DNA from: Mesostigma viride
Lineage: Eukaryota; Streptophyta; Mesostigmatophyceae; Mesostigmatales; Mesostigmataceae
Direction of reading: 5' to 3'
Length of the DNA stretch: 64,000 nucleotides
Assembly (NCBI GenBank): GCA_009746045.1
Contig: RPFO01000131.1
Location: 631,662-695,661, forward strand
Shown here in pieces: positions 18,871 through 60,309 of this stretch. The stretch's first letter is position 1. The number at the start of each line of letters is the position of its first letter. Made by a program: the position numbers and the translations under genes. The notes beneath the pieces were generated by a model, which had not been told where the DNA came from, ran no database searches, and worked only from the letters and a program-made list of their open reading frames with translations.

Positions 18871-19026
18871 GCGGAATATTATCTTGCCTTTTTCACAGTC
18901 TTATTTAACCCTTAGAACACCATCCTGGAGGCTCTCCCAATACTTTACATTTGCTGCCATTTCCTCCATGATTGGTTGTGAGTCAGGAAACACTGCCACC
19001 CACGCTTGAAACAGCGGGAGGGCGAT

Positions 19027-19250
19027 GAAGGAGAAGAAGCCAAGCTGTGGACAGGGGCGTATTATGACAACATGGGCAGAACAGGTTGAACGTGGTAGAT
19101 AGCATTAGTGTGGTGAAGGAGAAGAAGCCAAGCTGTGGACAGGGGCGTATTATGACAACATGGGCAGAACAGGTTGGACGTGGTAGATAGCATTAGTGTG
19201 GTGAAGGAGAAAATGCCAAGCTGCGTGCGAGGAGAAAAGAATCCAAATTT
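19027..19250 (-). repeat. 88-bp tandem repeat carrying duplicated exon-9 acceptor (left copy)
   Basis: GAAGGAGAA landmarks at 19,027, 19,115 and 19,203 give an exact 88-bp period. On the minus strand two upstream units repeat TGTCCACAG followed by CTTGGCTTCTTCTCC, the real acceptor and first bases of exon 9; the third carries a degenerate version. The same array is at 32,563-32,786. Confidence 0.9.
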
Positions 19251-19371
19251 TGGCGATGCAAGATAGAATGACGCAGGAATGGTAAGTGGGTCACTTAGGC
19301 ACCCGAAATCGGGGATTGTCAAGATACTACTAAAAAGATCTAACTGTCTCAGTACATCACCCAACATGCAG

Positions 19372-19545
19372 TATCTCTCACAATCCATCACCCTGTGCTG
19401 TTTTGGCATCAGTGCATCTACCAACATGCATCATCTCTCACAATCCATCACCCTGTGCTGTTTTGGCATCAGTGCATCAACCAACATGCATAATCTCTCA
19501 CAATCCATCACCCTGCGCTGTTTTGGCACTTGCTGAGGCGAGTTG
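19372..19545. repeat. 60-bp tandem repeat in PDE intron 8 (left copy)
   Basis: CAATCCATCACCCTG recurs at 19,381, 19,441 and 19,501, an exact 60-bp period. It is intronic; ORFs through it are by-products. The right-hand copy is at 32,908-33,081. Confidence 0.9.
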
Positions 19546-22275
19546 CCACTTAGATCTCTTACGTCCGGTAAACTTCTGGTATGCCTTGAATCCTCCATGG
19601 ATACTAAATCAATGGACAAGAGTCTGTCCAGGTAACACCGAGAGCATCAGTAGCAGGTGAAGAAAATGGCTGTCACCGTTGGGCTCGGGTCCAGCAACTG
19701 TCACCGTTGGGCTCGGGTCGAGCAACAGTTGTTCCCCACAAAGATCACACCAATAGGAAACACACTTGAAACCATACCACTTGTTGCATACCATTAATTT
19801 CGAGCCAGCAACCGGACTCCCACGCAGCCATGCCATGGATTACCCACGTTAAAGAGTTTCTGGCGCTTGGTAAGGTTCAAGTGTAATCTCAATCCATGTC
19901 CGTACCTGAGTCCAAGGTGCTTACAGTAAAGCTCAAAGGTACTTATTGTAGGAACGATTGTAACCACCGTACCTGGCTCTTGGCGAGGTTGTTGTCCTTT
20001 CGATCCATGAAAGGCGACACTTTGAACCCTGCCGCCCGCTCCTTGTCCCCCTGAAGGTAGAACTCCTCGGTGATCGCGGCCGTCCACCTCTTGTGGATGT
20101 CCAGCTTCTTGGCCGCGTGGCCAATGTCGGCCACCTTGAGGGCGATCTGCATCAGCAGCAGCCGGTGGCCTTCTGCATTCTTGCTCAGCGGCGACTCCTT
20201 GTCCTTGGTCCACGCCTTGAAGGCCTCGACCATTTCGAAGTGGCGCTTGCTGGGGAGCGATACAATAATTAAAGAAAGCGGCAATATAAAGGGATAGAGC
20301 GCACCAAACGGGGTATCATGCATGGGTTGCGCAGACGCAGGCAGGCAGGTATTAGACAGACATGTGTGCAGCCGGGGGCTCACCAAGAATGGCGTCGAGC
20401 ATGGTGTGGCAGCAGGGGATGCGCGATGCTTGAAAAGCTTTGTGCCCAACAGCATGAGAAACAAGACACAGCCAGGAGGAGTGGCGAACCAAATATGCCA
20501 GTAATTACAGCACGGCTGATGCCAGCCGCCACTTCAGATCCCATCTGGAGATACAGTGCATCGATCATCTTGTTAAGATACTGGGGAGAAGCCAATAGAA
20601 AGATGAGCCAGCTCGTGCATCTGCTGCAAGCACACTGAAATGTAGGGAGGAAGTATCCATGATGACCAATATACTGTATTCTTATCTTTATTCTTATTTA
20701 TATCAGAGTTTCTTGTTGACGCTGCTTTCTCTCTCCTGGTTTGACGTCACTGTTGTTAGAAGAACAAAAAAATTAGCACCGTTAGCCGTTAGCAGTTGAA
20801 ACAAACAACTTAGGGAGATTCCACCGCATTTACAGTACTCCACCGAAATAACCAAGCCCTGATGGCGTATCGAATGTAAGTATGAGGCCCTGGCAAGGTT
20901 ATTGCTTGCGATCCCATGGAAAAGTTTGATGCAAAGACAGAAAATGTCAACGTACCCATCCAGAATGCTACACAGCCGGAAAGGGAAGGAGGTAGCCACA
21001 ACCATAGGCATGGCTTTACAAGAGAAGGTTTGCTCTCACATGACTGCCAATACAAGGCACTCATAAGGGCACAAACAGGTTGGTGAGGTCCCATGATTAG
21101 CTAGTAATACTAGTTCTAGGTCCGGGCTACCGGTGCACAGCAGGTTGAACACTTGGACTACGCAGTCAGGTTTGATGCCACCATATTCCCAATGAATCAT
21201 CCGCCACTCGTCGATCTTGGTATCTGCATTAAAACTGTCATTCAGGCCAACATACAAGAACTTGGATGACTCACAGGTCGGACGCCAGCACGATCTCGAT
21301 GACCATGCGCCGCAAGTATTTGAAGTCATCCTCATCCAGGCCCTCGAATATGTTCAAGTCAGCCTCCACCATCAGCAAAAAGGCCTCTGCCACGTGGTAG
21401 TTCTCCAGTACAGTCAGGTCATTGTAGCGCAGCGCCAATGTATCGGCCGACTTGACCACAAAGTCGTTGTTCAGGCCCGGGTGCCGGAAATCATGCACCA
21501 GGGCGGCCGTGACGACTGCTAGCGTGTCCAGCCGGGTCAGGTACACGCCCACCCCCGAGCGCTTGAGCAGGTGGAACAGGCTGTTGGTCACATCAGCAAT
21601 ATGCGTGCTGTTGTGGTAGCCATTAGACAACATCCCTTCATCCAGCGCAGCCAGGAACCTAGCCAACTTGGCCCTAGGAAGCCGGAACTCCCTCATGAGT
21701 GACATGCGACGGAACACCTCCAGCCCCATCCACAGGATCGGCCGCCCCATGCTCACCTCCAGCAGCTCCCACGAGTTAAAGTTCCACTCGCCCACCCGCT
21801 CAAGGACCGCACGGAGTGGTCCCCGCACCTCCGCGGAGAGATTAAGTGCCATGTCGGACGCGGATTGCAGCGCCTGCAAGGCATACTTGCTAGCAGAGCT
21901 CCCAACGGCCCCTGGTAACCCGGTCCCTGTGCCGCCCTCCTCGTCCTCCTCGCCCCCCATGCCAGTTCTGGCTCCTGCCTCAGGTGTGCGTCCGATGCCG
22001 GGAAACCCACCATGTCCCGCACCGTGTTCAAGAAGGCGTCGTCCGACAAGTGGCTCGGCCGTAGCGGGGACACACTCGTGGTGGAGGAGTGGCCGCTGGC
22101 ATTGCCACTGCTGCGGCGGGAGAAGGTCTGCATGGAGCTGTTCATCGTGGGGAGCCGCATCACGGTGGAGCGCAGCCACGCGGTCGTGTCGTCGTCCAGC
22201 ACCTGCATGCAGGCCACGGGAGTACGCGAGGGCGCATAGCAGGGGGGCAGAAAGTAAGGGTTAGCAGGGCAACTT

Positions 22276-22410
22276 TTGCAAACAGGGCAGCCAACAGGGC
22301 AGCCAACAGGGCAGCCAACAGGGCAGCCAACAGGGCAGCCAACAGGGCAGCCAACAGGGCAGCCAACAGGGCAGCAAACAGAGCAGCAGACAGGGCAGCG
22401 AATGGGGCAG
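22276..22410. repeat. 12-bp tandem repeat (CCAACAGGGCAG) in PDE intron 6 (left copy)
   Basis: About eight perfect units followed by degenerate ones. The period is a multiple of three, so ORFs on both strands run through it. On the minus strand it lies between a decoy exon-7 start (about 22,427) and the real exon 7. The right-hand copy is at 35,813-35,947. Confidence 0.9.
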
Positions 22411-23101
22411 CAATGCCGTCGTCCAGCACCTGCACACAGTGGAGCGAATATAGACAAGTTGTGGCTTCATGGTTCAGTGTAAAGACAGAGACACATCACA
22501 GGTTGTGCGGTCGTGTCATTGTCCACCAGAATTTCACACAATGAGCGAGAGGGCGACCACGCGCGCAGACGTCACGCGAGAGGGCTGTCACGCGGGCAGA
22601 TGTCATATTGGGAGACCCCCTGAGATGCATCAGGCTATGCTGCAGAGTCCTAGTCCAGCACCTGTGCGGACAAGGGCGAGAGGACGAGGATTAGCAGAGG
22701 AGGCATGTGACACCCCATTGTGCCCTATCAGACCCCTCACCCCCACCATCTCTGCACCACGCACCCGGACCCCTCACCTGTGTGTCTTCACCAACCACCT
22801 GGCCAGGTGATTGCAAGTCCAGGGCAGTCCTGCCCATCCTCTGCTGCAGCACGATGGGCATGTGTAGCTCTGGCATACGCAACAGTCTCTGGATGGTGGC
22901 CAGCGCCTGGGACCCGGGACCCGCGCTCGCCCCGGCCAGCTCCCTGCATGCACCCCACGAAGGCAGCATGGATGACAGAAGTCGCTTGGGCAATTTACAC
23001 TCAGTGCTTTGCAAGTCGCTTACTCAAATGGGTGACGGATCGGCGGAGCTGGTTACAGCGAACGGCAGCGCGAAACAAGGGACTAGGTAATGGTGGCGCA
23101 A

Positions 23102-26100
23102 CTCCTTCAGATAAAGGCTTGTGTGAATGCCTTCACAAATAGCCCTGCATTCTGCCACATCACTGCTGACAGCCACCCGTTTGTGCAGGCGACTAAACCA
23201 GCTCACCAAACTCCCCAGGCCTTCCTGTCTGAGCACAAAGAGCCCTGCAGCCCTGCCCCTGACCTTGGAGACCTGCCTGCTGTCCATTGAGCTATCCACA
23301 TACAGCTCCATGCAAATGGGTTGTGATAAATCCACTGCAGACAACAGAATGCCAGATGAAGCCCTGACCTGATCAGCCACCTTGGCAGACCCTAGCTCCA
23401 CCAGCATGTCATCAGGCAACCTGGCTATGACCATAAGGTCTGGCCTGGAAATGCCTGCCACCCAAGCAACCATGCCCCTCACCATGGGACACAGTGCCTG
23501 TGTGATGGTTGGAGGAAGCTTGCTAATGAGGGTCTCTTGATAGTCATTGCCCCCCACCAGCAGCATACGCCACTCCCCTCCCTTCTTCACCAGTGTGGCC
23601 TCCATGCCCACAAACAGCAGAGGCTCATTCTCCACCTGCCATTGCTCCCTACCCAGAGGAAACTTGGACTTAATGATGGTGATCAGCTCCTTAAGCCACG
23701 ACGTGGGAGCTATCAGATGTAGGTCATCCCCGTGCAGCGAAGCATACACTGGCAGGCCTTCCCATTGCCCCAGAAACAGACAGGGGTCTACAGGAGAGAC
23801 CTTCAAGTTGCAATGCTCCTTCAGGAAACGGTTGAGAGTCTCCCTCCAGATTATTGGACTTGACCTCAGGCCCTCCAGGCCCTTGAGGATTTTAAGGAAC
23901 TCCGTGTGGATGTCCCTTTTCCATACAGCAGGCACCCTAACATAGAAAGGCGTCTTGCCCTCCCACTTTTCCTGTGCCACATCTGCATCACCCTCCAGAA
24001 ATGCCCTCTTGAAGTCTATCACCACTGAGCCATAGTCCAAGCCCTTGTTGAGAAGGCCTAGAAAGACACACAGCAGCAGCCTCCAAGTATCATGCAGCAT
24101 GCCAGGGGTATACAACTCCTCAGCAGTGCACTCACCAGTACCCTTGAACTCATTCAGCACTGGCCTGACATGTGGTACCTTGACCCCGTCCACCTCCTTC
24201 ATCTTGATGACAAACTTGAGCTTGAGTAGACGTCGTGCAGGAGGCAGGTCATTGACAGGTTCCACGCATTTCTTGGAGATCCAGTCCTCCCCAGATTTAA
24301 TGAGACCCAGTGTGACCTGGGGACACATAATGGGAGAGGACATGAGCTTCACCAGGCCTTGGTAGTTGATAGGGCTGTGTCCAGCAAGTGAGTGAGGACC
24401 AATGCCCAAACTGCTTGGATGACTAGCAGCTGGCAGTATGAGGTCATCAACCAAGGGCTCCTGCCCCTGGCACACTTGCACACGCTTAACCGTCCTGGTT
24501 ACTGCACGTGATAGGTGAGTGGTCCTGAAATTAATCAGTGGGACCTGACCAGCCCCTTCCTTAGTCAGGAGAGAGGACGTGATCACTACCCCATCCTGGC
24601 ATAGGAAATTCTGCCCCAGAAGAGCAGGTCCTTGATAGCCCTCCAAGACACAAAAAGCAGTGTCCTGTCCAAGGATAGGAATGAATACCTCACCCAGTAC
24701 CTTCACGTGTACCCCGCCACTGAAGTCAGACACAAACTGATAGCTGGGTTCAGACATGCTGTACCCTGCTGCAGCCCTGGTCCCAATAATGGAGACCTGA
24801 GAATTAGTGTCTACCTCTAAGGCAGTGTCCAGCCCCAGATTGCCATGCCACCTGAGCTTGGCTACCTTGGGCTGCTTCTTGGCCCTTTGTAGAGCCCCAA
24901 TCAATCCAGCCAAACTTGTCCCCCTGGGCTTGGTTAGTGCCTTGGGCTTGACAGTTGACTCCCCAGCTGTTGACCTTGCAGCCTGTTCAACAAGTACCTC
25001 TGCAACCTGGCCAGGGCTGACAGATTCCCCTGCAACAGATGTGGTCGTTGCGTCAGTGATGTCACCTGGGACCTGAAAATCCTGCAGATCCTGTGAGCCT
25101 TGTGCCTGACTGCCCTCATTCATCAGGTTAGGCTTGACATATGACCAACTCAGCCGGTGTACATGCTTTGGTTCGTCCTCCATGCTGACCAAGCATGCGT
25201 GGCTAGCTTCATCAACCTGGGTAACCACCCCAGGACTCCAGCTACCACGTTTGCCATAAAGGCTAGGTTCCTTCCAAGCTAGGACCTTCTGACCCACTTG
25301 TGGCTCCAGCATCTTCCAACCCCGGTCCTTCTCCCTCAGCTTGGCAAAGGTGACATGTGCAGCATGTTTCCAGCCCTCCAGCACATGTGGTGGGCACAGG
25401 CCATGATATAGACCCATTGGGCTGACAGCAACTCCATCATAGTAGAAGTTAACCCTGCTGTTCAGCTGCTGCTCCACGTTCCTCAGCCATGCACTCCTGA
25501 CAAGTGCAGGTGCAGACAAGGGTACCCAGTCTTCAGAGATGATCAATTTCTTGACCTCCTGGATTGCCCTCTCGATAGCACCCTGCTGCCCATGAGCCTC
25601 CCTAGGTGTAACCAGCAACTCAGGAAGGGTAGGATCACCCTTGAGATGCTGAAACTGCATGTCCACCTGGATCCTTGTGGTAGGAAACTTGGCTCTTACA
25701 TTCTGCAGGGCAGCCAGCAAGTACCTGTTCTTCATAGAAGGTAAATGCTCTAGCACCTTGTATTTCGTGTACCTGTCCACGCACACCAACAGTTGCATGC
25801 CCCTGATGTGTTGGATATCACACTGCAGATCACCAATGCTCTGAGGTAGAGCTTTGGCATGTGATTTCCTGGGCTTGTTGGAGGACAACTGGCACTTACA
25901 CCGTGAGGCAGCTTGCTGACACGCCTTAAGAAGGGGTGCCCTGCCCATACGGAAGGCAAAGTTGTTTGACAGAGAAGTGGCATGCCCAAACATGTTGTGG
26001 ATTCGGGCACCCAACTCCTGGTACACAGAGGAAGCAGTCCCTGGCACAGTCAGGACTGTGCTGTCAGGTTGTCCAGCATCACCATGCTGACTTCCATCCT

Positions 26101-26308
26101 GTTCTGACTCAGAGCCTGAGTCACCCTGCTCATGCCCAACACCTGGACCGCCAGCAGGGACCACATGCATACCACCAGAGGCCTTCACACCCCTCTGTGG
26201 TTGTACATTGGTTTCTCTCAAAATGAGAGGTCCACCCTCGTGCCCAGCACGAGGATGCATAGGGTCAGACATACTTACAGCTGCATCAGCTGTCAAGGAC
26301 GTCTTCAT
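23102..26308 (-). CDS. Copia-type pol polyprotein, 3'-truncated
   Basis: One open frame from ATG at 26,308. Residues 104-140 hold the integrase HHCC-like zinc site (IHNMFGH .. ACQQAASRCKC). The integrase core has acidic candidates D164, D216 and E246. Residues 497-568 look like a retropepsin (LEVDTNSQVSIIG .. GPALLGQNFL). RT of the Copia class follows at about 700-900 (IDFKRAFLEG, LRSSPIIW, catalytic SLHGDD at 857-862). RNase H begins near 1003 (YVDSS) and reaches AECRAICEGIHTSLYLKE. The coding match stops at about codon 1069, where the frame runs into duplicated PDE-intron DNA. The end of RNase H and the 3' LTR are missing. RT follows integrase, as in Ty1/Copia. Oddities: protease-like domain after integrase with DTN instead of DTG, and HGDD instead of YVDD. 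Confidence 0.85.
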
Positions 26309-26449
26309 AGGAACCTGTACCTCTCCAGGTGACCTGGGGCCACACTGAACCTGGAGATCACCCTCTTGTTGCCCAGATATAAAATCTGCATTGGAGCACC
26401 TGGCCTCCCCCTTGGGTGAATTAAGGTGTGTAGGGGTTGCCTCAGACAG

Positions 26450-27562
26450 TCACTGCTCCTTGTTGTCTTCTTGCTGACTGCCCTTTGAAGGCTGGCCTGC
26501 CTGGGACTTGTTGTTGTTCTTCTTGTTGTTGTTGTTATTCTTGTTGCTGCCCTGGCCCTGGGACTTCTTGAAGCTGGGACACTCCTTCTTGATGTGCCCC
26601 CACCCCTTGCACAGGTAGCATTGTATCTTGGACTTGCCCTGGCCACTGCCCCCATTGTCAGACGCGTTGCCCTGCTTGGGCTGACCACCCACCCGCCTGA
26701 ACACCGACTTGGAGTGTGACCTCCTGTCAGAATCAGGTGAATGATCTCCCTTGCGCTTGTGATGGTTGCCCCTACGCCCTCCTTGGCTTCGGTCAGCCTC
26801 AGACGTCTTGGAGCCACCCTGGGTACGCCCGCCTGCCTGGGTAGCCTTCACTGCTGGCACTCCACCCTCAAACAGCTCCTCTGCCTCGAGTGCTTGTTTG
26901 ATTATGACCTTGTAGGCCTTCAGGGTTGAGTGTGGGGCACACATGACTTTAAGGAGCCACGTGTCGCCTTATCCAGCCCAGAAACCTTGAGCCAGTTGGT
27001 TAGGGCTATGTTATCAGCGACATTAAAGCCGTGAGCCCTGCCCTCCTCAACCATCTTACAATAGTTGAGAAAGTTCTGGATCAGGTCCCCCTTGACCTCC
27101 CACCCTTGGTATTTGTCCTGCCAATGGATCCCACTTCTTCCTCTGATCCTCCAGCAGCTCCTTCAGCTCAGCCACGTACAGTGCCCAGGCCTTATTGGCC
27201 TTTTTGCACTCCCTGGTTAGGTCCTTAATCTGGTCAGTACACTTGCCAAAAGTGCTACTGCCTATCCAGATTTGATAGTAATTTGTACCACCGTACAAGC
27301 TAGGGAACCCTTCCAATCCCTCCACAAACTCTTCAGCCTGCTTAGGCTTGGAGTCTGAGGTTACAGGCTGCAACTGATTGACAATTAAAAGACCCTGTGT
27401 GGTAAGATCAAAGCCATGAATAGCTTGTGCATTATTATTATTGTGAGGAAGGTTGGTAATCTCTCCGGTAAGCCCCACGTCATCTACGTGAGCGGTTCCA
27501 CTACCAGCACCCCCATTATTATTCCCACTGGCTGGACCCTTGCTACGGCGTCCCTCAGCCAT
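26450..27562 (-). pseudogene. Copia-type gag with CCHC zinc knuckle, frameshifted
   Basis: It starts MAEGRRSKG at 27,562. The first frame runs to about 27,130 (FPSLYGGTNYYQIWIG, LYVAELKELLED). A second frame continues with WQDKYQGWEVKGDLIQNFL to about 26,970, and a third (LKAYKVIIKQALEAEEL) leads to a CCHC knuckle (CYLCKGWGHIKKEC, about 26,600) and an Asn/Lys-rich tail ending at 26,450. Two frame changes are needed, so this copy would not make full Gag as written. It lies just upstream of pol on the same strand, as expected for a Gag-Pol element. Confidence 0.75.
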
Positions 27563-29083: not shown

Positions 29084-30092
29084 TCACTACTCGGTACGTA
29101 CTCGCCTTCTTTTTGGAGCCCGAGTACTACTTGTTACTCGTACTCGCCTACTTTTTTGAGCCCGAGTACTACTCGTTACTCGTACTCGCCTACATTTTTG
29201 AGCCTGAGTACTACTCGTTACTCGTACTCGCCTACTTTTTTCAGGCCGAGTAGTACTCGGTACTCGTACTCGTGAAAGTATCAGATACTCGAGTAGTACA
29301 GGAGTAGTACTCATGAACCTGAGATGGTCGAGTAGTACTCGAGTAGTACTCATGTTCTGAGGACAATCATCATATGTTTGTCATGAATAGCCAGACATTC
29401 GACACGGGTCGACACTGGCTGCATGGCCCGGCCTCACAAGTACTGTAAGTCCACGAGTAAAAAAGGCGAGTACCGAGTAGTGAGTACTACTCACTACTCG
29501 GTATACTCGCCTTCTTTTTGGAGCCCGAGTACTACTTGTTACTCGTACTCGCCACCTTTTTTGAGCCCGAGTAGACGGAGTAGTACTCGGTACTCGTACT
29601 CGCCTTCTTTTTTTGAGCCCGAGTACTACGGCGTTACTCGTACTCGCCTACATTTTTGAGCCCGAGTAGTACTCGTTACTCGTACTCGCCGACTTTTTTT
29701 TGCCTGAGTACTACTCGTTACTCGTACTCGCCGACTTTTTTTAGCCTGAGTAGTACTCGGTACTCGTACTCGCTGCCCAAAATCCATCGTACGTGGACCC
29801 AACCCTAACCGTGATCTATCAGACGGCACCACTCCCGGGGGGCCCGTCATGGGACGGAAGATCATCATGGCTATACAAAGGCTAGGGCATGGCTTCTCAT
29901 CAGAGAGTGACTCTCGGCTTAGGCAGGGCTTGGCTAAATTCTTAATGCATCATCCATGGGGAGTCTGGGCATTATAGATAGAGCGTAGCTAAATTCTTAA
30001 GGCATCATCCATGGGGGCCATGATGGGCGCACATGCGGTGGGCCACTTGCTAGGCTAAGCCTTACTATAATCTGCACTACTGCTGTATTCCC

Positions 30093-31469
30093 TAGACTGG
30101 GGTTGCTGGGGTGGCAGGGGGTGCCTGCCAGGGCTTGTGGTCGATGTGGATGACGTCCCCCCTCCAGTATACCGGTTTCCGGCCCCCTGCGCTCTGCCGG
30201 AGCTGGAGGTAGGTCGGCCATAGCTCGTGTCGTCGTACGTTGTTGCTGGGCCAGGGTCAAGTCGTCGTCCAGCGTGAAGCGAGTCCTCGAGAGCTTCTTG
30301 CGGCATTTAAGGAACGACAGCTTGTCCGCCATGTACAGTAAAGGTGAGGAGTAAGGGAGCCGGGCCAGCCTTACCCCGCGCGCAGGGAAGGAGAGCAGCC
30401 GACATCCGCAGCTCACCAGTGAGTTGCATCGGGGCAAGAATGTCGCGCTTAAATGCCATGAGAAGAGACTCCGAGGTCTCACCTACCGGCTGGTCGAAGT
30501 GCTTGACGATGACATTGTGGCTGCGCTGGGTGCGGTCAGCCTCCTCGCGGAGAGTCGAGGGTTTGTTGCTTGAGCTGTGCCGCGATGGTGGAGGTGGTGG
30601 AGGTGGTGTGATGCTTGAGCAAATCCGCCCAGGTCTGGATGGAAGGAGCATCACTGGCCGTGCCAGCAGATTTCGGCAGGGCAGCGATGTCCTTAATCAC
30701 CGCCCATGGGCGGTGAGGCCTGCGGTGTCGTGCAAGCACTCAAGGGCGGTGGCGGTGGCTTGGAGGCACTTGTCGAGGTCGAGGAGCTGGGCCTTGATGT
30801 CGGCAGTGGAGGCGGAAATGGCAGTGGAGGTGGAGGCGACGGTGGTGGAAAGGTGAGGGAGCTCAGTAGCCAGCGTGCCTCCCATTGCTGCCTCATCGGC
30901 AGCAAGGGGGGTCACGTGCTGCTGGAAGGCTTCCGTAAGGATGGAACGGAGGGTGGATGCGGAGATGGATGGAGCCCAGATCTCGCCGTCAGAGCGCATG
31001 AGAAGGGAGCAAAGGATGAGGTGCTGAAGGCGGGGGCGTGGTTGGGGGTGATCCGTCACATATAGGTGAGGAGGCATTTGCCATCCTCTACCGGCATTTG
31101 CCATCCTCTTGAAAAGATGAGACGGTCGATGCTGTGGAGATGGATGCACAGGTCGCAAAGCGAGGCGTAGTCCCCGTAGAAGATGCAATGCAGAGCATCG
31201 ATCGGGAACATGTTGAGCCATTCGTGATCGTCGACTTTGAAGGGTTGAGGCCGGAAGCGCGGTTCTGTCCAGCGCGGGGCTGGGCGGCTGCGTTTGGGAT
31301 CAGGCGATGCTGAAGGCGAGGCCGCAGGAGCCGAGTGCATTACTAATGCTTGAGTAGTGTCACCGCTGCCTGGGAGGCCGGGCGGGACTGCAGCCGAAGC
31401 TGCAGGCGAATTTTCTTGGCTCATCGCAGCCGCCAGGCTGCGTTGCGTAGTCGAGCGTTTGCTCGCCAT
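30093..31469 (-). pseudogene. LINE ORF1-like protein, frameshifted (right copy)
   Basis: Counterpart of 16,557-17,933 with the same frame breaks plus one more: an extra C in a C run near 30,160 diverts the last codons (EGGRHPHRPQ instead of EGDVIHIDHK). Confidence 0.5.
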
Positions 31470-31635
31470 TATATTGCGTTTTAGTTTCGGAAAAGTATAT
31501 CAGCGTGTGCGTCTTAGAAAGACGAAGCGATAGTGATATTCACGGCCGAATTTGGTGCCCAAACGTGAAAGTTATGAGCTCCGCCGTCAGCCATGGCTAC
31601 CTCGTGGCTCGGATTTGTGCCTGCGGACTATGGAG

Positions 31636-31896
31636 GATAATAAGCGGCTGTTAATTGCTCTCTCGTCGCAAGAAGTTGCACGACCTCCCCTGGAGGCCTG
31701 GACTCTAGATGACGGCCTGACGCCTGCTCAGAAGCAGCGCAGTGACACGACCTGTGGTTGGAGTACCTCCGCCACAACCAAACCGGCCCATTGAAGGTGT
31801 TTTAGCTGGAGGGGCGGGGACCCGATAGTCAACAACCAGCTGTGGAAGCCCCCGGCTCTCAGGCTAGTAGACGTACTAGCGGTACGGTTGTCACAC
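31636..31896 (+). pseudogene. ORF1 C-terminal domain fragment (right copy)
   Basis: Identical counterpart of 18,100-18,360. Confidence 0.5.
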
Positions 31897-32090
31897 CCGA
31901 TGATGCCTGGGTGATGCAACCTGGACACTCCCAGCCATACCATTTGCCACGCCAATATTTTGCAGGGTAGAAGGTAGCCATGCATGCCTATAGCCTAACC
32001 AGTATAGCCATTTCAAGAAGACATCCGCCAGCCTAGCTATGTGCCTCGATCGCTTAGCACTGCATGTTTGCTCACGTCAATTTGGTAATG

Positions 32091-32406
32091 CAATGATCAC
32101 ACGGATCATATTGCACCCACAAGGGATGCCAGATCGTTTCGACGGGTCCGATTGTGCCCCCTGTGGCATGCTTGTGGCATGAGGGAAAGGCTTCCTGTAG
32201 TGCACATACAGGGATTAAAAGCACTCCGGTGCTCGTGACTCCCCAACGGGAGCAAGAGTTTAATTTATTAATTAACTAGGGATCGAAGGGGGGGTCTCTG
32301 CCCCCTGGCCGCTGTGCCCACACTCAGGGATTAAAAGCACTCAGGTGCTCCGTGACTCCCCATGCAACGGGAGCACGTGCTTCACTAATTATTGATTAAT
32401 ACGAGC
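32091..32406 (+). repeat. Family F1 repeats (right copy)
   Basis: Counterpart of 18,555-18,870. It begins 31 bp beyond the PDE stop codon at 32,437, so it probably supplies part of the native gene's 3' UTR. Confidence 0.65.
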
Positions 32407-32436
32407 GCGGAATATTATCTTGCCTTTTTCACAGTC

Positions 32437-43310
<10,874 letters not shown>

Positions 43311-51734: not shown

Positions 51735-52075
51735 CATCTTGTGGTTGATCATCAGGTCCCCGCCCCTCCAGTACACCTTGGGCTTCTGGGGGTCCTGCTT
51801 ATGGCGGAGGTATTCCGGCCACAGGTCGCGTCGCTGCTGTTGCTGAGCGGGGGTGAGGTCGTCATCCAGCGTCCAGGTGAGGTCGTGCAACCGCTGCCCT
51901 CCATGGATGATGCTTTCGGCATTTAGTCACGCCCTGCCTATAATGGGACCCCTTGGCCATGGATGATGCATTAAGAATTTAGCTCAGCCCTGCCTATACA
52001 GAGAGTCACTCTCTGATGAGAAGCCATGCCCTAGCTCTTGTATATAGCCATGGTGATCTTCCCCCCCATGACAGG
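51735..52075 (-). pseudogene. Third ORF1 C-terminal fragment with flank
   Basis: The minus strand encodes LDDDLTPAQQQQRRDLWPEY and WRGGDLMINHKMWTPPAG to a stop near 51,718. The adjoining 51,900-52,075 matches 16,300-16,500 in inverse (CATCATCCATGG, AGAGAGTGACTCTC, GGGCATGGCTTCTCATCAG). It is therefore another copy of the element family in the duplicated segment. Confidence 0.55.
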
Positions 52076-52079
52076 CTTG

Positions 52080-52222
52080 TCGCGTCTGCGTGCCACAATC
52101 TCCGGCGCCACCATGGCGGCTGGCCACTCAGCTTAATTTGGTAAAACCCAAATGAGCTGAGCTGACGTGCCTGCCTTAACTGCATGCCCTGTGGGGTGGG
52201 CGAGGACCTGTCCCATGAATGA
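52080..52222. repeat. Detached copy of the Gypsy 3' internal end
   Basis: About 140 bp nearly identical to 53,470-53,610, the stretch next to the Gypsy 3' LTR (CTCCGGCGCCACCATGGCGG, GGTAAAACCCAAATGAGCTG). It implies a second, rearranged copy of the same family just outside the element. Confidence 0.85.
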
Positions 52223-52503
52223 AAAGAGGGCTCTCAGCCGAGGACAAGGAACTGTCCCTCGTGCCTGATGACCACCTTCTTGATCCCCTTGTGTACCGTC
52301 GCGTGCCGCGTTTGAATATCCTTGCTGGGGCGTTAGCTAGACGCTCCAACTACTCTAATTGCGACAATATGATGGTGCAAGAGGGTGCTTTTGCCTCCCC
52401 TGCTATAGAACAATGCTTTCACAACACACACTTTGCACAGTCTGATGATGAAGCCGCACATGCGGAATTTATTGAGAAAGTTAATACAATTACAACACGT
52501 TGA
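52219..52503 (+). CDS. Unrecognised 94-codon ORF
   Basis: ATG at 52,219 to TGA at 52,501. The product is mixed-charge (LSAEDKELSLVPDD, HFAQSDDEAAHAEFIEKV) with two Cys and no known motif. It lies between a Gypsy fragment and the Gypsy LTR, so it could be remnant retroelement coding sequence. Confidence 0.2.
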   Translation: MKRGLSAEDKELSLVPDDHLLDPLVYRRVPRLNILAGALARRSNYSNCDNMMVQEGAFASPAIEQCFHNTHFAQSDDEAAHAEFIEKVNTITTR

Positions 52504-52638
52504 TAGTCTCAATATCGATGCACTCCATGCTCACGAGCCCGCAGTTAGGCAGCGCTCCATGACATGCTACCGGCCTTGCTCCCAAGGAAAGGGAGAAACA
52601 CGAAGGCCACTAACGAGAGACTCGAAGAGACTACACGC

Positions 52639-53466
52639 TGCGTGAGAGTCCTCTTCGACTATGAACCAAACCATTCGTCATGCCACACGCATGACACACG
52701 CCACACTTGTCAGTCCAGCCAGGAATGCCAAAACTATCTTGCTGCCTGAACCATGCAAATAGAAACCGCATTCCAGTTGCCGTCCTGGCTTTCTACCACA
52801 CATGCCAACAAAAGCAGGAAGGCATCCCGACAAATCTAAATTGCTACCCTGTTGCCGATCTCATCTCCTAGAGGCTCCGGCATTTCTGTCCCTGGGAATG
52901 TCCGACATTGAGTCACGTCCAGCAAGGTCGAAGCATAATATCCTTCAGACAATCTGCACGCTCACACCTTGCGTGTGAGTGGCCCAGCAAACATTGCGTC
53001 TAATCGTTCCTTTCTAGAAGAAATCCCTTTGTAGGGCTGCCAGCGATTTCGCATTCATTCCAGCGATCTGGCTCCGCACCGCAAATTGTCCTTTTCCATT
53101 TTCTGTCCAGTCCTCATAACGTTGACCCGCTATTCTACACCACAAAGACACCTGGCCTGTCAATAGCCTCGGCGCTGTTGAAGTCCAGCAGTCCAGCTTC
53201 AGCTCCAGCTGTCCACTAACACGCGTATGATCCTCTCGACGCTGCGCACTTGTGCTGCCGTCCGCTCAAGTCAGTGCTGCGCGCCCAGCTGTGCCTGGCC
53301 CGGCGCGCGTGCACGTACACTTTCGTCCGCTCTTATGCTGCAAGTGCTAGTGTCCCCCCCGGTCACTAGCCTTTGTCGAAAATGCGTAGAAAACAAATTC
53401 CTTGCGCACGTCACCGGTCTTGTGCATAGTGGGCGCGCCCGGATGACATAGCTCGCGTCCGTGACA
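52639..53466 (-). repeat. Gypsy 3' LTR (828 bp)
   Basis: It matches 59,440-60,273. The LTRs differ by two substitutions and three indels (4, 1 and 1 nt); the two single-base indels are in or next to C/G runs. Confidence 0.93.
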
Positions 53467-53637
53467 GCTGTCGCGTCTGCGTGCCACAATCTCCGGCGCC
53501 ACCATGGCGGCTGGCCACTCAGCTTAATTTGGTAAAACCCAAATGAGCTGAGCTGACGTGCCTGCCTTAACTGCATGCCCTGTGGGGTGGGCGAGGACCT
53601 GTCCCATGATTCCCCCCCTCGCTGGCGACCGGCCCCA

Positions 53638-55959
53638 TCACGAAGACAGCGATCGTACCAAGACAAGGGCAGCGGTGACCGCAGTCAAGCTGCGGGAGGT
53701 AAACTGCGCAGCGGTGCACACTGGACAAAACCAATCCCCCTCCGGAATGCTGGTGACCACTGGCTGCAAGCACTGCATGTGCCAACCACAGTTACACTGA
53801 TCACACAATAACATGGACTCCGCCTGATCGACCCGGTGACAAACCTGACACTGGGCGTCCTTGACTCGGCGAGACGTGTGCGGTTGGAGGTCGTGGACCA
53901 AATTGGGCAGCGAGCAGGGACTGAGATTGCTGAGGTTGTCAGTCGTACGGCTCCCGTCGGCGCCCTCCAAAATTGCCACTCCCGATGGTTTGATAGCCAC
54001 AATGCGCAAAATGGTGGGCCCCGCCTCCACATCCAAAGTGTGCTTCAGCTGAGTGCGCAGGAAAACATACTGCCCTGGCCTAAACCGCAGCTGGCGAGCC
54101 ATGTATGCGCCCCCCCGGCGCTGAGCGTAACGCAGGGAGTCCCTGTGCTGAGCAATGAACAAGTTGTTCATCGCGATGGGCATGACCTTCTTAAAAGTCT
54201 CTGCCCTGGCCAGCACCTCAACCAAAAATTGCTGAGCGTTGTCGAAGGCCATGGGTTCGGGGTGCGCAACCTGTGCCTCCGTAGGCAAAAGAGGATTACG
54301 CCCGAACAGAAGGAAATACGGGGAGAAGGTAGCGAGAGACTCCTGGGGAGACATGCGATAACCCATGGCAATCCATGCCAACTCGCGATCCCACCTGGCC
54401 GACTCCGGCACCTGCAGGCTCCACTTGCGCAGCGCCTGCTTGACGGTCTGCACCAATCTCTCAGCCAAACCATTGGCCTGAGGATGCTCCCGAGAAGTGC
54501 GACGGTGATCAATAAGACATCCATCCAGCAACTCCTGGAACTCACCCCTGAACTCACCACCCTGGTCCGTGACTACCTCCGCGGGAGCCCCAAACCTGGT
54601 GATGATGTCTGCAAAATGCTTCGCTGTGGTAGCGGCATGCTTGTCAGCAATGGGGATCAACTCAACCCATTTGCTAAAGCTCTCCACGCATACCATGACA
54701 TAGAGGTTGCCGTCAGGGCTCTCCTGAAACGGCCCGCACAGATCGACGTGCCAGCGATAAAACAAGCCCTTGATGGGAAGCGACATCAGCTCCTTGGCAC
54801 CATGATCTGCGCTAAAGTTAGCCTTGGTTCGAGCACACGGGACACAGCTGGCCACTACCTGGGCCACTGTGTGTCGCATGTTATTCCACCAATAGCTGGT
54901 CCGTACGAGGCTGAGCGTGCGATTGCCACCCAAGTGACCATACCGCTCGTGGTACGCCTGCACTATAGCAACGCGCTTGTCAGGCGGTGGGACGACCACC
55001 CTACGCTTGCCCAACAGCTTGTACAAAACCCCATCTTCCCAACCATAGGTTGCAGCCCTGTGCTGCACCCTGTTCAACTCCGTCGCCTTCTGAGCAGGAG
55101 TCCAATCGACTGGAGTAGGAGTCAAGACAGCACCCTGCACTTGCTCCAAAACTCGACCATCTAGCCAGATATCAGCGGTGTAGCAATCAGCAAGAGAGCT
55201 ACGCGCTAAGAGAGCCTGCACAGCGATCAGCTGCTGCAGAGAAGGATCAATGTCAAAGGACAGAGACCTACCCTCTTCCATAGCGCACACAGCTTTGGAT
55301 GGCGTGAATGGCGACGGCCGCACCGGGTCGTCGCTGATGCCGAAGTCCGCCACAGAGTACTCGACACTGCGCCACCACGCCTCCTCCTCATCGTCGGCCG
55401 CATACCCAGCAGCGTTCACAAAGACCACAGAACCCGACGAGCCCTCGGCACCCATGGCCCGGGCTCCAGTGTGGTCAACAGTGGTAGGCATGGCGTATCG
55501 GGATAGCACATCGGCGTTGACATGGTCCTTGCCGGCCCGATGCACAATGGTCATGTGGTACTCCTGGATAATCATGGCCCATCGGGCGAGCTTACCCGTC
55601 AGGTTGGTGTTGGTCATTAGCCACTGAAGCGGCTGGTGGTCTGTCACCAGAGTAAACACGCGCCCAACTAAATACGGGCGAAAGTGCTTGATGGCCCACA
55701 CCACAGCCAGTGCCTCCCCCTCATAGGAAGAATACCGGCTCTCCGCTGGGTTGTTGCTGCGACTAGCATAAGCAATAACGTGCTCGCGCCCATCACCATC
55801 CTTTTGCGCCAAGACCGCACCCAGTCCTACCTTGGACCAGTCGGTATATAACACAAATGGCAAAGCATAGTCAGGGGCGCGCAGAATCGGGCCGACGTGA
55901 GCTCCTGCTTGATTGTCTCGATGGCGCGTTGCTGTGCGGGACCCCACGCCCACACGCAC
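53638..55959 (-). CDS. Gypsy pol, third frame: RNase H, integrase, PHD finger
   Basis: True reading enters near residue 24 (PILRAPDYALPFVLYTD) from the RT frame. Residues 38-120 are RNase H (YTDWSKVGLGAVLAQ, YEGEALAVVWAI, LVTDHQPLQWL). The integrase zinc site is H337/H342/C372/C375; the core has D406, D465 and E500 (HVDLCGP, VTDQGGEF, NGLAERLVQTVK). A GPY/F-like segment follows (RPGQYVFLR .. ILRIVAIKPSG). Residues 704-748 form a C4HC3 PHD finger (CQVC .. CDQC .. HMQC .. WFCPVC). PHD fingers often read histone-tail marks, so it may steer integration, taking the place of the chromodomain of other Gypsy elements. The start to RNase H is separated from RT by a one-base break in a C run near 55,892. 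Confidence 0.92.
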   Translation of the reverse strand: MRVGVGSRTATRHRDNQAGAHVGPILRAPDYALPFVLYTDWSKVGLGAVLAQKDGDGREHVIAYASRSNNPAESRYSSYEGEALAVVWAIKHFRPYLVGRVFTLVTDHQPLQWLMTNTNLTGKLARWAMIIQEYHMTIVHRAGKDHVNADVLSRYAMPTTVDHTGARAMGAEGSSGSVVFVNAAGYAADDEEEAWWRSVEYSVADFGISDDPVRPSPFTPSKAVCAMEEGRSLSFDIDPSLQQLIAVQALLARSSLADCYTADIWLDGRVLEQVQGAVLTPTPVDWTPAQKATELNRVQHRAATYGWEDGVLYKLLGKRRVVVPPPDKRVAIVQAYHERYGHLGGNRTLSLVRTSYWWNNMRHTVAQVVASCVPCARTKANFSADHGAKELMSLPIKGLFYRWHVDLCGPFQESPDGNLYVMVCVESFSKWVELIPIADKHAATTAKHFADIITRFGAPAEVVTDQGGEFRGEFQELLDGCLIDHRRTSREHPQANGLAERLVQTVKQALRKWSLQVPESARWDRELAWIAMGYRMSPQESLATFSPYFLLFGRNPLLPTEAQVAHPEPMAFDNAQQFLVEVLARAETFKKVMPIAMNNLFIAQHRDSLRYAQRRGGAYMARQLRFRPGQYVFLRTQLKHTLDVEAGPTILRIVAIKPSGVAILEGADGSRTTDNLSNLSPCSLPNLVHDLQPHTSRRVKDAQCQVCHRVDQAESMLLCDQCNCGWHMQCLQPVVTSIPEGDWFCPVCTAAQFTSRSLTAVTAALVLVRSLSS

Positions 55960-57665
55960 CCCTTCTTGAGTAACTCGGTCAAGGGCTTCACCTTGCTGCT
56001 GAAGTTCTCAATGTAACCTCGGTAATAGCCAGCCAAACCCAAATACGCCCGCACCCCTGAGACATCCGTGGGTACGGCGGCCTGCGCAATGGATTCGACC
56101 TTGGCGGCATCAGGCGTCCGGCCACCCGGCACAATCTGATGACCAAGGAATGAGAGGGTCCGCTGGGCGAACTTGCACTTCTCAGGGTGCAGCCGCATAT
56201 TATGCTCCTCGAGAGCCAAGCGAACCTGCTCCAAGTGCGCCAGGTGCTCCTCAAATGTCGCGCTAAAGACGATTACATCATCAATGTAACAAGCGGCGAA
56301 AGGAAGACCTGCAAGCACTTTGTCCATAGCTCGTTGGAAAACAGCACTAGCGTTGCGGTGCCCAAAGGGCATGCGCACCCACTCATACAAATTGCCGCCC
56401 CCCCAGAATGCAAGCTTCCGCTGATCCTCCGGCGCAACTGCGATCTGATGAAAGCCGCTACGCAGGTCCAGCGAGGACACAAACTTCACATGAGGAGATA
56501 TCTTATCCAGGACATCATCCACACGTGGCATGGGGTAACGGTCCACGGGTGTGTGTGCATTCAGCAACCGCAGATCGGTGGCCATGCGCATACCCGTCCA
56601 TGCCCCGGTGATAGCGTCCTTCTTGGGCGCAACGACAACGGCAGCAGCATAGCTGGAGGAAGATTGCCTGATGATACCGGCATCCTCTAACTCCTTGCAT
56701 TGCTCGGCTACAAAATCCAACTCGGCCTGACTCAGGCGATGCTGGCGTCGGAACAAAGGAGTGTCAGTGTCCAATGGAACACGCATGGTCCCACCATTGA
56801 AACACCCCAGTTCATCACTTGTGAAAGCGAAGGCCCCCCTTGCAGTGCCTAGCCACTTTAGCATGGCTGAGCGCTGCGCATCAGAAAGGTGTTCGCCAAT
56901 AGCCCAGGGGTGCGTATCCGCGGGATCACCCACAGCTACCGCATGTGCCTCAAGATGCGGCGCCCTAGCCGCATCGTCGTGGAACAAGGAAAAGGCTGCC
57001 ACACCTGGTGTGACACCCACCGCCGGAGCCTCGCGTGCCGCACGGTGTATTACCCGATGCAGCGTGGGCTCGCCGGCCAGCACGGTGCTGGTCAGCAGGG
57101 CGGTCATGAGAATGATAGTCCACACCTGTCGCAGACGCCACCCCCATGCTGATGAAGTCCCCGTCGCTGCAGGGCGCTTCAGTTTGGCTGCGCGCGCCTC
57201 AACCTGCTGAGGCGGATTGGCTGGGGACGCCCCCCCAGACTGGCGCACGGCAACCGATGCAAGCAGCACATACCCGACCTGCAACACCGACATAGCCTGG
57301 CCTATCAAAGACCAGCGCTCACTCTCGAGCACGCCCGGCAGCGCCGAGGCCCCGACATGAAAACCCATGCTGGCCTCACGAAATTCTGCGGGTGGCTGCA
57401 CCAACAGACCGGTGGTAGTGTCCCAAACGAGACCCTTACCCCGATCACGGTATGCTGTCGACCCTTGGTAACTGACCAGGGTCGGCAGTGCACACATGGG
57501 GCTCCCGACCCGGTTGACGCGTGCATACGGTGGGCGATCCTCGCTATCCACCTTCTGCGTGACTAGGTGGGAAGGCAATGCTACCTCCGCAGACACACTC
57601 GGATGCTGCCTTGCTACGGCCCCCAAGACCGCCTGCACACGGTCGCACACGCCACGTTGGTCCAA
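55827..57665 (-). CDS. Gypsy pol, second frame: methyltransferase C-terminus and reverse transcriptase
   Basis: Opens around 57,650 without ATG. Residues 1-135 complete the methyltransferase (DRPPYARVNRVGSPMCALPT, GLVWD, REASMGFHVG, and SERWSLIGQAMSV, matching motifs IX-X). A linker with a hydrophobic patch (182-197) follows. RT spans about 310-560: AQAELDF-type start LSQAELDFVAEQCKELEDAG, MATDLRLLNA, SSLDLRSGFHQI, FGHRNASAVFQRAMD, catalytic YIDD at 460-463 and FLGHQIVPGG. It ends out of frame at 55,827; adding one C in the run near 55,892 would rejoin it to RNase H. Confidence 0.92.
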   Translation of the reverse strand: MDQRGVCDRVQAVLGAVARQHPSVSAEVALPSHLVTQKVDSEDRPPYARVNRVGSPMCALPTLVSYQGSTAYRDRGKGLVWDTTTGLLVQPPAEFREASMGFHVGASALPGVLESERWSLIGQAMSVLQVGYVLLASVAVRQSGGASPANPPQQVEARAAKLKRPAATGTSSAWGWRLRQVWTIILMTALLTSTVLAGEPTLHRVIHRAAREAPAVGVTPGVAAFSLFHDDAARAPHLEAHAVAVGDPADTHPWAIGEHLSDAQRSAMLKWLGTARGAFAFTSDELGCFNGGTMRVPLDTDTPLFRRQHRLSQAELDFVAEQCKELEDAGIIRQSSSSYAAAVVVAPKKDAITGAWTGMRMATDLRLLNAHTPVDRYPMPRVDDVLDKISPHVKFVSSLDLRSGFHQIAVAPEDQRKLAFWGGGNLYEWVRMPFGHRNASAVFQRAMDKVLAGLPFAACYIDDVIVFSATFEEHLAHLEQVRLALEEHNMRLHPEKCKFAQRTLSFLGHQIVPGGRTPDAAKVESIAQAAVPTDVSGVRAYLGLAGYYRGYIENFSSKVKPLTELLKKGCVWAWGPAQQRAIETIKQELTSARFCAPLTMLCHLCYIPTGPR

Positions 57666-59439
57666 TAGGCACGCAAACGATGCGTGAGCCCACCCAGCCC
57701 TGCGTTGTCACACACGATGGGCTCCCCCAGGAGTGCCACGATTGTAGCCCAGTCCTCCCGCACCGCCTGATGTGGGCTGTCACCCGCCACAACGTTCTCA
57801 AACAGATACGCAGGCGGATGGGGCTGACGCGACTGCAACAGTCCCACCACACGCAACAGTTCCCAGAACAGCGCGCTACGCGGATCGGCTAGCCCCCGCC
57901 CTTGCCCTGCCTGGCTCAGGCCCTGGCACTCCCAACCCGCAATTACCAAGTCGATGGCATGATGCCTGCGCAACAACTGCTGCACCTGCACCTCACCGAT
58001 GGCTCGGATATCTTGAGGACATTCCCCAAACGGGTCACGCCATGCTGATGGCGGAAACTGCGCGGGATACTCTCGCGACAACACGCCACAGTGACTGAAG
58101 TACACCTGACGCGCCTTGTGCGATGGCTCTACCGCGATGAGTTTACGGCACACGCCGCCTGCGGCCAAAAAGCCTGCAATGCCCCCTCCGATCCCCGCAA
58201 ACAGTTCCAACACTACCGCACCCTTGGCAAAATCAGGGGCCTGCGGTAAGATTGCAGCAGAAAAATTACCTTGGGCCTCCGAGACACCCGGTTGCACCAA
58301 AGTGAGGCCATGGCTGGCCATCTGAGGAATGGTGATGACGGCTTCAGTCACCCGCTTGCGCATAGCCAGCTGCCGCGTGGACGTCACAGCATCCAGCGAC
58401 CACTGCGTGCGCATCTTGGCAATGCTCGCCGTTGGCTGAGGCAGCACCGTCCGATGCTTGTCCCACGCCGATGAGCCCGCCGCCCGTACCTCCACCATGC
58501 TGACCTCCACCACGCCCGCAGCCGCGGAAGGGTTGAGGCGTGCAGCCCCGGCTGAAGAACTGAAGCATGAGACCGGCACACTGGCCCGCTTCAGGCCAGC
58601 CCCATCCCAATCAGGGATGTAAGATGCCTCCTCCGCCCTATAGTCCACCTGAACCATGGCGCGAGCAAGGACATCCACCCCGAGTAGTGCGGAATATCCA
58701 CACTTGTTGACCACCAGCGCATACGCGGACACGGTGGTCATGCTAGAGGCGCGCAACGGATTGAAAATCACGTTGACTTTAACCGCCGTCATAGCGTACG
58801 GCTTACTAGCCGGACCCTGCCAACCTGACACAGACACGGGGCTTTCCACTAAGCCACCGTTCTCGTAGGTCAGGTTCAGCATGGTGGCCAAGTCCGTGCT
58901 GATGACTAGCGGCTGAGCACCGCTATCAAGCTTGACTGCGCCAACCAACGGACATGTCACCATGTCGCTCCATACATCTCCACAGGCTCCAACTGCTTGT
59001 AACGCTATGGACGGCTCACCATTGGGGTATGGAACTACCGTGGGAACCTGGGGAACTGCCCTAGTGCGCTGCTGGCTACTTGTGCTGACCACTCCCGCTT
59101 GCACCACGGGCACTGCGGCTTCTACCGGCTGACGCCCGTAGGTGACGGACTCAGAATTGCGCAAGGTGCGCACATCATGCCCATCTGCGAACAACTGGAT
59201 CTCGGACACAACCGACCCCAGCCACTCAACCCCCTTCTGCCCGAAGGTGTCGACCACCTGCCGTGCTGAAAACATGGGTACGTCCACAATGAACGGCATT
59301 GGGTACACAGGCGCCAATCGCCTACGCTGCTCCAGCCCAGCAGGGTTCGCATGCTCAAAAGCAGATTGCACCCCAGCCAGCGGCATGGAAAAGGACGCGG
59401 GCAACTGCCCGTGAGAGTCCTCTTCGACTATGACGAATG
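57614..59439 (-). CDS. Gypsy first frame: retropepsin-like domain fused to DNMT3-like cytosine methyltransferase
   Basis: The frame is open from inside the 5' LTR; internal sequence starts at 59,439. Numbering from 59,638: residues 1-66 are LTR-derived. A retropepsin-like domain has LDSGAQPLVI (237-246) and YSALLGVDVL (315-324). In the same frame follows a C5 methyltransferase: LELFAGIGGG (477-486, AdoMet site), IAVEP, PQDIRAI, DLVIAGWECQGLS with likely catalytic C571, DPRSALFWELLR, LFENVVAG (612-619) and THRLRAYWTN (652-661). FENVVA and HRxRxxW.N point to the DNMT3/DRM side of the family rather than DNMT1. Pro before the catalytic Cys is replaced by Glu. The frame ends at 57,614; motifs IX-X continue in the next frame after a one-base break near 57,650. 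No Gag is present. Confidence 0.9.
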
Positions 59440-60273
59440 TGCGTGAGAGTCCTCTTCGACTATGAACCAAACCATTCGTCATGCATGCCACACGCATGAC
59501 ACACGCCACACTTGTCAGTCCAGCCAGGAATGCCAAAACTATCTTGCTGCCTGAACCATGCAAATAGAAACCGCATTCCAGTTGCCGTCCTGGCTTTCTA
59601 CCACACATGCCAACAAAAGCAGGAAGGCATCCCGACAAATCTAAATTGCTACCCTGTTGCCGATCTCATCTCCTAGAGGCTCCGGCATTTCTGTCCCTGG
59701 GAATGTCCGACATTGAGTCACGTCCAGCAAGGTCGAAGCATAATATCCTTCAGACAATCTGCACGCTCACACCTTGCGTGTGAGTGGCCCAGCAAACATT
59801 GCGTCTAATCGTTCCTTTCTAGAAGAAATCCCTTTGTAGGGCTGCCAGCGATTTCGCATTCATTCCAGCGATCTGGCTCCGCACCGCAAATTGTCCTTTT
59901 TCATTTTCTGTCCAGTCCTCATAACGTTGACCCGCTATTCTACACCACAAAGACACCTGGCCTGTCAATAGCCTCGGCGCTGTTGAAGTCCAGCAGTCCA
60001 GCTTCAGCTCCAGCTGTCCACTAACACGCGTATGATCCTCTCGACGCTGCGCACTTGTGCTGCCGTCCGCTCAAGTCAGTGCTGCGCGCCCAGCTGTGCC
60101 TGGCCCGGCGCGCATGCACGTACACTTTCGTCCGCTCTTATGCTGCAAGTGCTAGTGTCCCCCCCCGGTCACTAGCCTTTGTCGAAAATGCGTAGAAAAC
60201 AAATTCCTTGCGCACGTCACCGGTCTTGTGCATAGTGGGCGCCGCCCGGATGACATAGCTCGCGTCCGTGACA
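59440..60273 (-). repeat. Gypsy 5' LTR (834 bp)
   Basis: See the 3' LTR. At its inner edge the last ~24 bp (CGTGAGAGTCCTCTTCGACT..ATGA on plus) is repeated 32 bp inside the element (59,410 and 59,442), so the normal primer-binding site is displaced or lost. Confidence 0.93.
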
Positions 60274-60309
60274 GGCTCCCCTTAGTTGGGTTGAGCTTGA
60301 TACTCTGGT

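Follow-up and report, generated by a model that had tools for sequence, protein, structure and literature searches.

A Ty3/Gypsy-type retrotransposon lineage with a DNMT3-like methyltransferase domain between protease and reverse transcriptase

Introduction

Does the cytosine methyltransferase encoded next to a Gypsy reverse transcriptase in this DNA belong to the retrotransposon, and if so, what kind of enzyme is it? An enzyme that normally silences transposons and is encoded by a transposon poses a puzzle: the element might restrain itself, mask itself or manipulate the epigenome of its host. We analysed a stretch of 64,000 nucleotides (hereafter the window) assigned to Mesostigma viride, whose genome was described as 441,847,188 bp long, with 66% repeats and CG methylation (extracts of PMC6947507).

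Ty3/Gypsy and DIRS elements that encode DAM and DCM occur in green algae and charophytes according to extracts of PMC6338049, so a methyltransferase-bearing Gypsy element in green algae is not new as such. Extracts of PMC12344493 also mention retrotransposons with DNMT3, in streptophytes and in dinoflagellates. The initial annotation referred to a 2018 report of methyltransferases captured by retrotransposons, which we traced to de Mendoza et al. 2018 (PMC5890265) and which holds a very close precedent for this rare arrangement: KnitGypsy-Dnmt3 of Klebsormidium nitens, a Gypsy element whose Pol frame includes an unpermuted Dnmt3. This element is described there as intronless and multi-copy, with the methyltransferase under purifying selection and with DIRS-like repeats combined with Gypsy-type enzymes. 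In the same extracts, CG methylation was shown for the SymbioDIRS enzymes, and KnitGypsy-Dnmt3 gave no methylation in yeast, a result that its authors call inconclusive. Among the titles and opening lines of abstracts in the literature results, none named a methyltransferase-bearing retroelement from Mesostigma, and none a Gypsy pol with a PHD finger.

Domain architecture of the window element

We found three long open frames on the minus strand, running from position 59638 down to 53638 (Table 1). The first (59638-57614, 674 aa) combines a retropepsin-like region, weakly matched, with a DNA_methylase domain (PF00145, residues 476-616, scoring 45.5 bits where the cut-off is 22); the sharing of one frame by these two domains, claimed from the sequence at the outset, was thus confirmed. 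The next frame (57665-55827) contains the stretch with methyltransferase motifs IX-X, followed by RVT_1. The PR-RT-RNaseH-IN order and the H2C2/DDE integrase of Ty3/Gypsy elements were both present, with the protease match below the cut-off, and the solved structures closest to the window RT were 4ol8 (RT/RNase H; E 4.8e-42) and then Ty3 Gag-Pol 7q5b (E 5.2e-41). The tyrosine recombinase that is the hallmark of DIRS elements was absent from the Pfam scan of the three window ORFs, which returned no phage_integrase domain and a DDE integrase instead. The window copy also lacks a Gag with a CCHC knuckle.

The reading frame of the window copy changes once after methyltransferase motif VIII and again between RT and RNase H. 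The comparison of the window copy with an intact copy covers 5,771 bases and contains 2 gap positions; both frame breaks are specific to the window copy. A programmed frameshift inside the window methyltransferase was rejected, since three intact copies are uninterrupted across the site.

Table 1. Positions of the insertion, its repeat segments and its coding domains in the window.
Feature	Positions	Strand	Evidence
Whole insertion, ends TGTC...GACA	52078..60273	-	GGCT flanking duplication (4 bp, + strand) on both sides
Target-site duplication left, GGCT	52074..52077	.	Read from sequence
Target-site duplication right, GGCT	60274..60277	.	Read from sequence
Terminal repeat segment B, 5' copy	59440..60273	-	827/829 aligned bases identical to 3' copy, plus 6 gap bases
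Terminal repeat segment B, 3' copy	52639..53466	-	Alignment with 5' copy
Terminal repeat segment A, internal copy, after G-rich purine run	53469..53609	-	150/151 aligned bases as in outer copy, 2 gaps
Terminal repeat segment A, outer copy	52078..52218	-	Alignment with internal copy
Repeat segment X	52219..52638	-	Flanks the coding part on either side in C111 and C133; missing at the 5' side of the window copy
Retropepsin-like domain	58673..58933	-	PF13650 residues 236-322, E 0.026, below cut-off; motif LDSGAQP; aligns with L081 protease region
Methyltransferase motifs I to VIII, DNMT3-like, motif IV ECQ	57650..58231	-	PF00145 E 8.6e-12; 46% identical to L081
Methyltransferase target-recognition part and motifs IX-X, next frame	57255..57665	-	L081 38% over 144 aa; intact copies 100% over 120 aa
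Reverse transcriptase, Ty3 type	56133..56627	-	PF00078 E 6.4e-28
RNase H	55558..55872	-	PF17917 E 5.7e-39
Integrase, H2C2 zinc part and DDE core	54481..54990	-	PF17921 E 7.6e-17; PF00665 E 2.1e-11
PHD finger, pol C terminus	53716..53850	-	PF00628 E 3.4e-9

The element is not bounded by plain LTRs: its minus-strand order is B - coding - A - GC - B - X - A, and an ordinary-LTR model (52639-53467 / 59440-60274) was replaced after reading the flanking duplications and the intact copies. The copy C224 has the same ends as the window element and is flanked by its own 4-bp duplication, which reads AACC in the direction of the element; TG..CA ends with 4-bp duplications were therefore read in two copies, with the repeats split or permuted. 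In C111 and C133 the A-B-X block flanks the coding part on both sides, and C224 has the order B-X-coding-A. C133 has its outer ends at other points, before A and after X, and a clear duplication was not seen there. A stretch matching approximately C133:15642-18318, which comprises X, the leader, gag and the start of pol, is missing from the window copy. The DIRS-like order of the KnitGypsy-Dnmt3 kind (A-coding-B-A-B) is present in the window as B(X lost)-coding-A-BX-A, and varies in other copies. The internal and outer copies of segment A differ only at the junction; the repeats are nearly identical, which indicates that the insertion is recent or recently converted.

Copies in the genome and a distant relative

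We searched 439.9 Mb of the genome (2,243 contigs) and recovered at least 127 matches with PF00145 (123 of 415 candidates scored) and at least 150 with the N-terminal piece of the window methyltransferase (150 of 419 candidates scored). All 150 copies scored in the second search were free of internal stops, and 31 of them had an open frame of exactly 2,074 aa (hand count). The exact 45-mer of the catalytic loop occurred 93 times per strand, 186 in total, against 0 in a backward-read control.

Domains were assigned in 20 loci by tblastn with pieces of the window and of the relative L081 (see below), not by Pfam; these loci were taken for having a methyltransferase match and are thus not a measure of elements without one. 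In family A, the window type, three intact copies (L158-L160) have PR-MTase-RT-RNaseH-IN-PHD in the 2,074-aa frame, which is identical in L158 and L159 and differs in L160. It is overlapped, in a different reading frame, by a 615-aa frame that is Gag-like by eye. L161 and L162 are damaged copies of the window type. In family B (L148-L153) a 1,642-aa frame comprises MTase-RT-RNaseH-IN-PHD, and an upstream Gag-PR frame lies in a different reading frame except in L151; a small length difference in L151 and L155 brings Gag-PR and MTase-pol into the same frame, separated by a stop. Of family C we read a single locus, L157, which includes PR, MTase and a portion of RT. The remaining loci, L154-L156 and L163-L167, are damaged to varying degree. 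The PHD finger was also found in family B (tblastn, 69% identity) and was not seen in the single family C locus, where the frame ends in RT. The window copy is a damaged member of a family with many near-identical copies.

A scan of prokaryote species genomes returned 59 loci, with L081 at the top (46% identity, E 2e-44; the next at 31%, 5e-18). L081 is filed under a cyanobacterial MAG, yet contains a complete Gypsy pol, and for this reason we infer that a eukaryotic contig was most likely misbinned. One 1,162-aa frame holds a Gag-like part, PR (PF13650 E 7.8e-4, below the cut-off) and a complete methyltransferase; a single stop codon follows, and then RT-RNaseH-IN-PHD (PHD E 4.3e-10) in the same frame. 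The context of this stop, TAG CAATCA, fits the CARYYA readthrough motif. The frame is interrupted at different points: upstream of PR in family A, after PR and ahead of MTase in family B, and between MTase and RT in L081. CCHC knuckles were recognised by eye in the intact copies and in L081, in which Pfam matched no Gag, and the L081 Gag gave no tblastn match in the 20 loci. Scans of IMG/VR with the RT piece and with the RNaseH-IN-PHD piece found no relative. The expectation that other copies would carry the domain in the same place was borne out by the catalytic 45-mers and by families B, C and L081, all with the same domain order.

Motifs, selection and methylation marks

We read motifs I (LFAGIGGG), IV (WECQGLS), VI (FENVVA) and VIII (THRLRAYWTN) in the window methyltransferase, in agreement with the initial annotation, which also placed motifs IX-X before RT in the next frame. 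Taken alone, this last stretch matched weakly although in the correct register (hhalign E 0.15) and gave only unrelated weak matches against the PDB; its alignments with L081 (E 4e-23) and with the three intact copies of the same genome (Table 1) establish its identity with certainty, as read from uninterrupted relatives.

Families A, B and C and L081, four divergent lineages across which the domain is conserved, all keep the catalytic Cys, the Glu of ENV, the loop of motif I and the arginines of motif VIII. Motif IV, PC[NQ] in the DNMT3 family, has this form only in L081 (PCQ); in families A, B and C it is ECQ, with Glu in place of Pro, and methyltransferase activity is consequently not assured. 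The domain might have lost its methylating function and serve to bind DNA or RNA or as a protein scaffold, or it might perform other chemistry. The Glu shared by the three families read in the genome speaks for this possibility, as does the lack of CpG depletion in the elements (below); the retained catalytic residues and the selection acting on the domain speak against it, and we consider it unlikely, though it deserves serious weight.

The dN/dS of the methyltransferase was 0.10 between families A and B, the sole pair of six with a finite dS; synonymous changes were saturated in most pairs, and in the other five methyltransferase pairs, all with saturated dS, pN was below pS. Among families A, B and C, pN was 0.17-0.25 in the methyltransferase, 0.14-0.17 in RT and IN, and 0.30-0.44 in the spacer between MTase and RT. 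For the spacer after RNase H the A-B value of dN/dS, 0.195, was likewise less than one, so methyltransferase and spacers differ in degree. The whole methyltransferase domain, judged from these substitution patterns, is under purifying selection that appears somewhat weaker than that on RT and IN.

Changes of the C-to-T type affected 48 of 6,371 CpG positions and 48 of 20,114 other C/G positions, an approximately threefold higher rate in CpG (8 of 18 copies, pooled by hand); the other 10 copies had 0 to 3 differences each and would add 3 CpG and 5 other changes of this type. Since the direction of change is unpolarized and the copies are not independent, this excess is merely consistent with some CpG methylation. 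The observed/expected CpG ratio of the elements was 0.78-0.84, compared with 0.75 for the remainder of the window; as the elements do not fall below their surroundings, heavy long-term CpG methylation of them is not evident.

Kinship of the methyltransferase domain

The DNMT3-like character assigned at first sight stood in part. It was supported by the sequence ranking of the L081 methyltransferase, with DNMT3A first (E 2e-8), and by the predicted fold of the L081 domain, with DNMT3 nearest; the N-terminal piece of the window methyltransferase ranked the DRM-type structure 4onj first (E 3.2e-5) and DNMT3B only at 0.0093, and tree tests left the placement open. The AlphaFold model of the window piece, built from 4 sequences, had low confidence (pLDDT 33.7), and the fold result rests on the L081 domain. 

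A derivation from a phage or bacterial DNMT3-like methyltransferase, and not from eukaryotic DNMT3, is about as improbable as a loss of methylating function, and it too retains some force. Such proteins (for instance L007 and those of Pelagibacter and Roseobacter phages) resemble the element domain in DPRSALFWE and RxRxYWTN-type motifs and are 36-39% identical to it over about 100 residues; they differ in being phage or bacterial proteins with PCQ and mostly QNRxR, where the element motif VIII has HRxR as in DNMT3A. We know of no Gypsy pol that carries a methyltransferase of this group. In a tree in which DNMT3A was entered as two pieces and DRM, DNMT1 and algal DNMT3 were left out, the elements grouped with DNMT3A with a UFBoot of 100 under two models. 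The AU test nevertheless did not reject two trees in which the elements leave the DNMT3-like clade (p 0.431 and 0.577). It rejected the topology that nests the elements in the bacterial DNMT3-like set with DNMT3A outside (p 0.015), which KH and SH did not reject.

Discussion

The window very probably contains a recent, damaged copy of a Ty3/Gypsy-type element, from a lineage with a DNMT3-like C5-cytosine methyltransferase between protease and RT and a PHD finger after the integrase. An independent capture of the domain, unrelated to KnitGypsy-Dnmt3, seems a little less probable than either of the alternatives above: motif IV differs from the canonical form and KnitGypsy-Dnmt3 was compared by description only, but the two elements share an unpermuted Dnmt3 within a Gypsy pol as well as a DIRS-like repeat order, a double coincidence that is unlikely, and L081 links divergent members. 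A chlorophyte host, implied by the initial annotation, found no support. Viewed by itself, the split of the window methyltransferase into two frames would favour a host or bacterial methyltransferase gene that adjoins the Gypsy insertion or was broken by it. This reading can be dismissed: the intact copies and L081 hold the domain inside the polyprotein frame, as the initial annotation had proposed, and the insertion ends with the 4-bp duplication fall outside the domain.

For the lineage as we read it, with the methyltransferase as part of pol, the enzyme would be made together with the other pol products and either cut free by the protease or kept as a fusion. It could be packaged in the particle with RT, integrase and cDNA, and might methylate cytosines, most likely in CG, in the DNA of the element itself or where it inserts. 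Integration may be steered by the PHD finger, through reading of histone H3 tails. By methylating itself, a high-copy element could limit its expression and hence its cost to the host; self-methylation of the retrotransposon was also proposed by the authors of PMC5890265, according to the extracts used here. A more speculative and rather improbable version is that this old Gypsy lineage pairs a DNMT3-like writer with a PHD histone reader, and that the Pro-to-Glu change in the active site of every family read would confer altered chemistry or an altered substrate, for example an RNA:DNA hybrid or single-stranded cDNA in the particle, with insertions marked by integration-coupled methylation. 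The question of what such an enzyme does for a transposon is now testable, given many near-identical open copies in at least three families, an intact relative with PCQ and a natural active-site change. If the host is indeed Mesostigma viride, the distribution of the lineage would extend to the base of the streptophytes.

Comparison with known systems

The catalytic domains of DNMT3A and DNMT3B are 23-25% identical to the element domain in structural alignments, and their motif IV proline is replaced in three of the four element lineages; ADD and PWWP had no match among the Pfam results for the window ORFs and L081. SymbioDIRS-Dnmt3 and SymbioLINE-Dnmt of Symbiodinium are similar in having a DNMT in the coding region of a retrotransposon, with Dnmt3 in frame with RT in the DIRS type, but they rely on a tyrosine recombinase or on a LINE endonuclease (extracts of PMC5890265), in contrast to the Gypsy-type DDE integrase and 4-bp duplications of the window element. 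KnitGypsy-Dnmt3, as described in those extracts, shares with the window lineage the LTR Gypsy type, the Dnmt3-type methyltransferase in the Pol frame, the lack of introns, multiple copies, purifying selection on the methyltransferase and the DIRS-like repeat order. It differs in motif IV, which is ECQ in three families of the window lineage, while the extracts state that key residues are conserved in KnitGypsy-Dnmt3, and in the PHD finger that ends the window-lineage pol, a term absent from the main text of PMC5890265. Based on the Gypsy enzymes, the Dnmt3 in Pol and the DIRS-like repeats, and likened by description, the window element is best classed with the KnitGypsy-Dnmt3 kind; relative to it, and again by description, the PHD finger and the changed motif IV are features of the window lineage's own.

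Organisation of the element and its genomic surroundings

The 40.9-kb contig C111 of the M. viride genome carried two copies of the methyltransferase, and at position 21667 an inner end immediately preceded segment A, one of the element's terminal repeat segments, which suggests that elements are arranged as head-to-tail arrays. A PF00145 search of the same genome also recovered a distinct, Dcm-like methyltransferase (364-aa frame, E-value 6.6e-45), found with equal score at 10 places among the matches listed. The frames adjoining it were unusual at the four loci opened, and these loci perhaps represent an endogenous large DNA virus. In the window, each of two near-identical stretches contained a phosphodiesterase-like gene, as read by eye, and a Copia-like element lay within the interval separating them.

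Features of the window and Dcm-like methyltransferase loci
Feature	Location	Strand	Remarks
Near-identical stretches (n = 2)	window 16300-22400 and 29840-36000		~13.5 kb apart
Copia-like pol	window 23024-26968	minus	1,141-aa frame; CCHC knuckle frame upstream; by eye
CATC tetramer array	window 2020-3114		1.1 kb
Dcm-like methyltransferase	L141-L147: C35, C47, C64, C79, C340, C389, C815

Junctions between coding frames

The frame overlaps of element families A and B enclosed homopolymer runs: G7 in that of family A, the window type (overlap at L158:7288-7471), and G9 in that of family B (overlap at L150:3595-3781). Such runs could reflect either programmed slippage or homopolymer errors in the assembly. 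In the distant relative L081, the methyltransferase and RT frames were separated by a stop codon, read as TAG CAATCA (3489-3497). UAG-CARYYA is a readthrough context, which this stop fits by its sequence.
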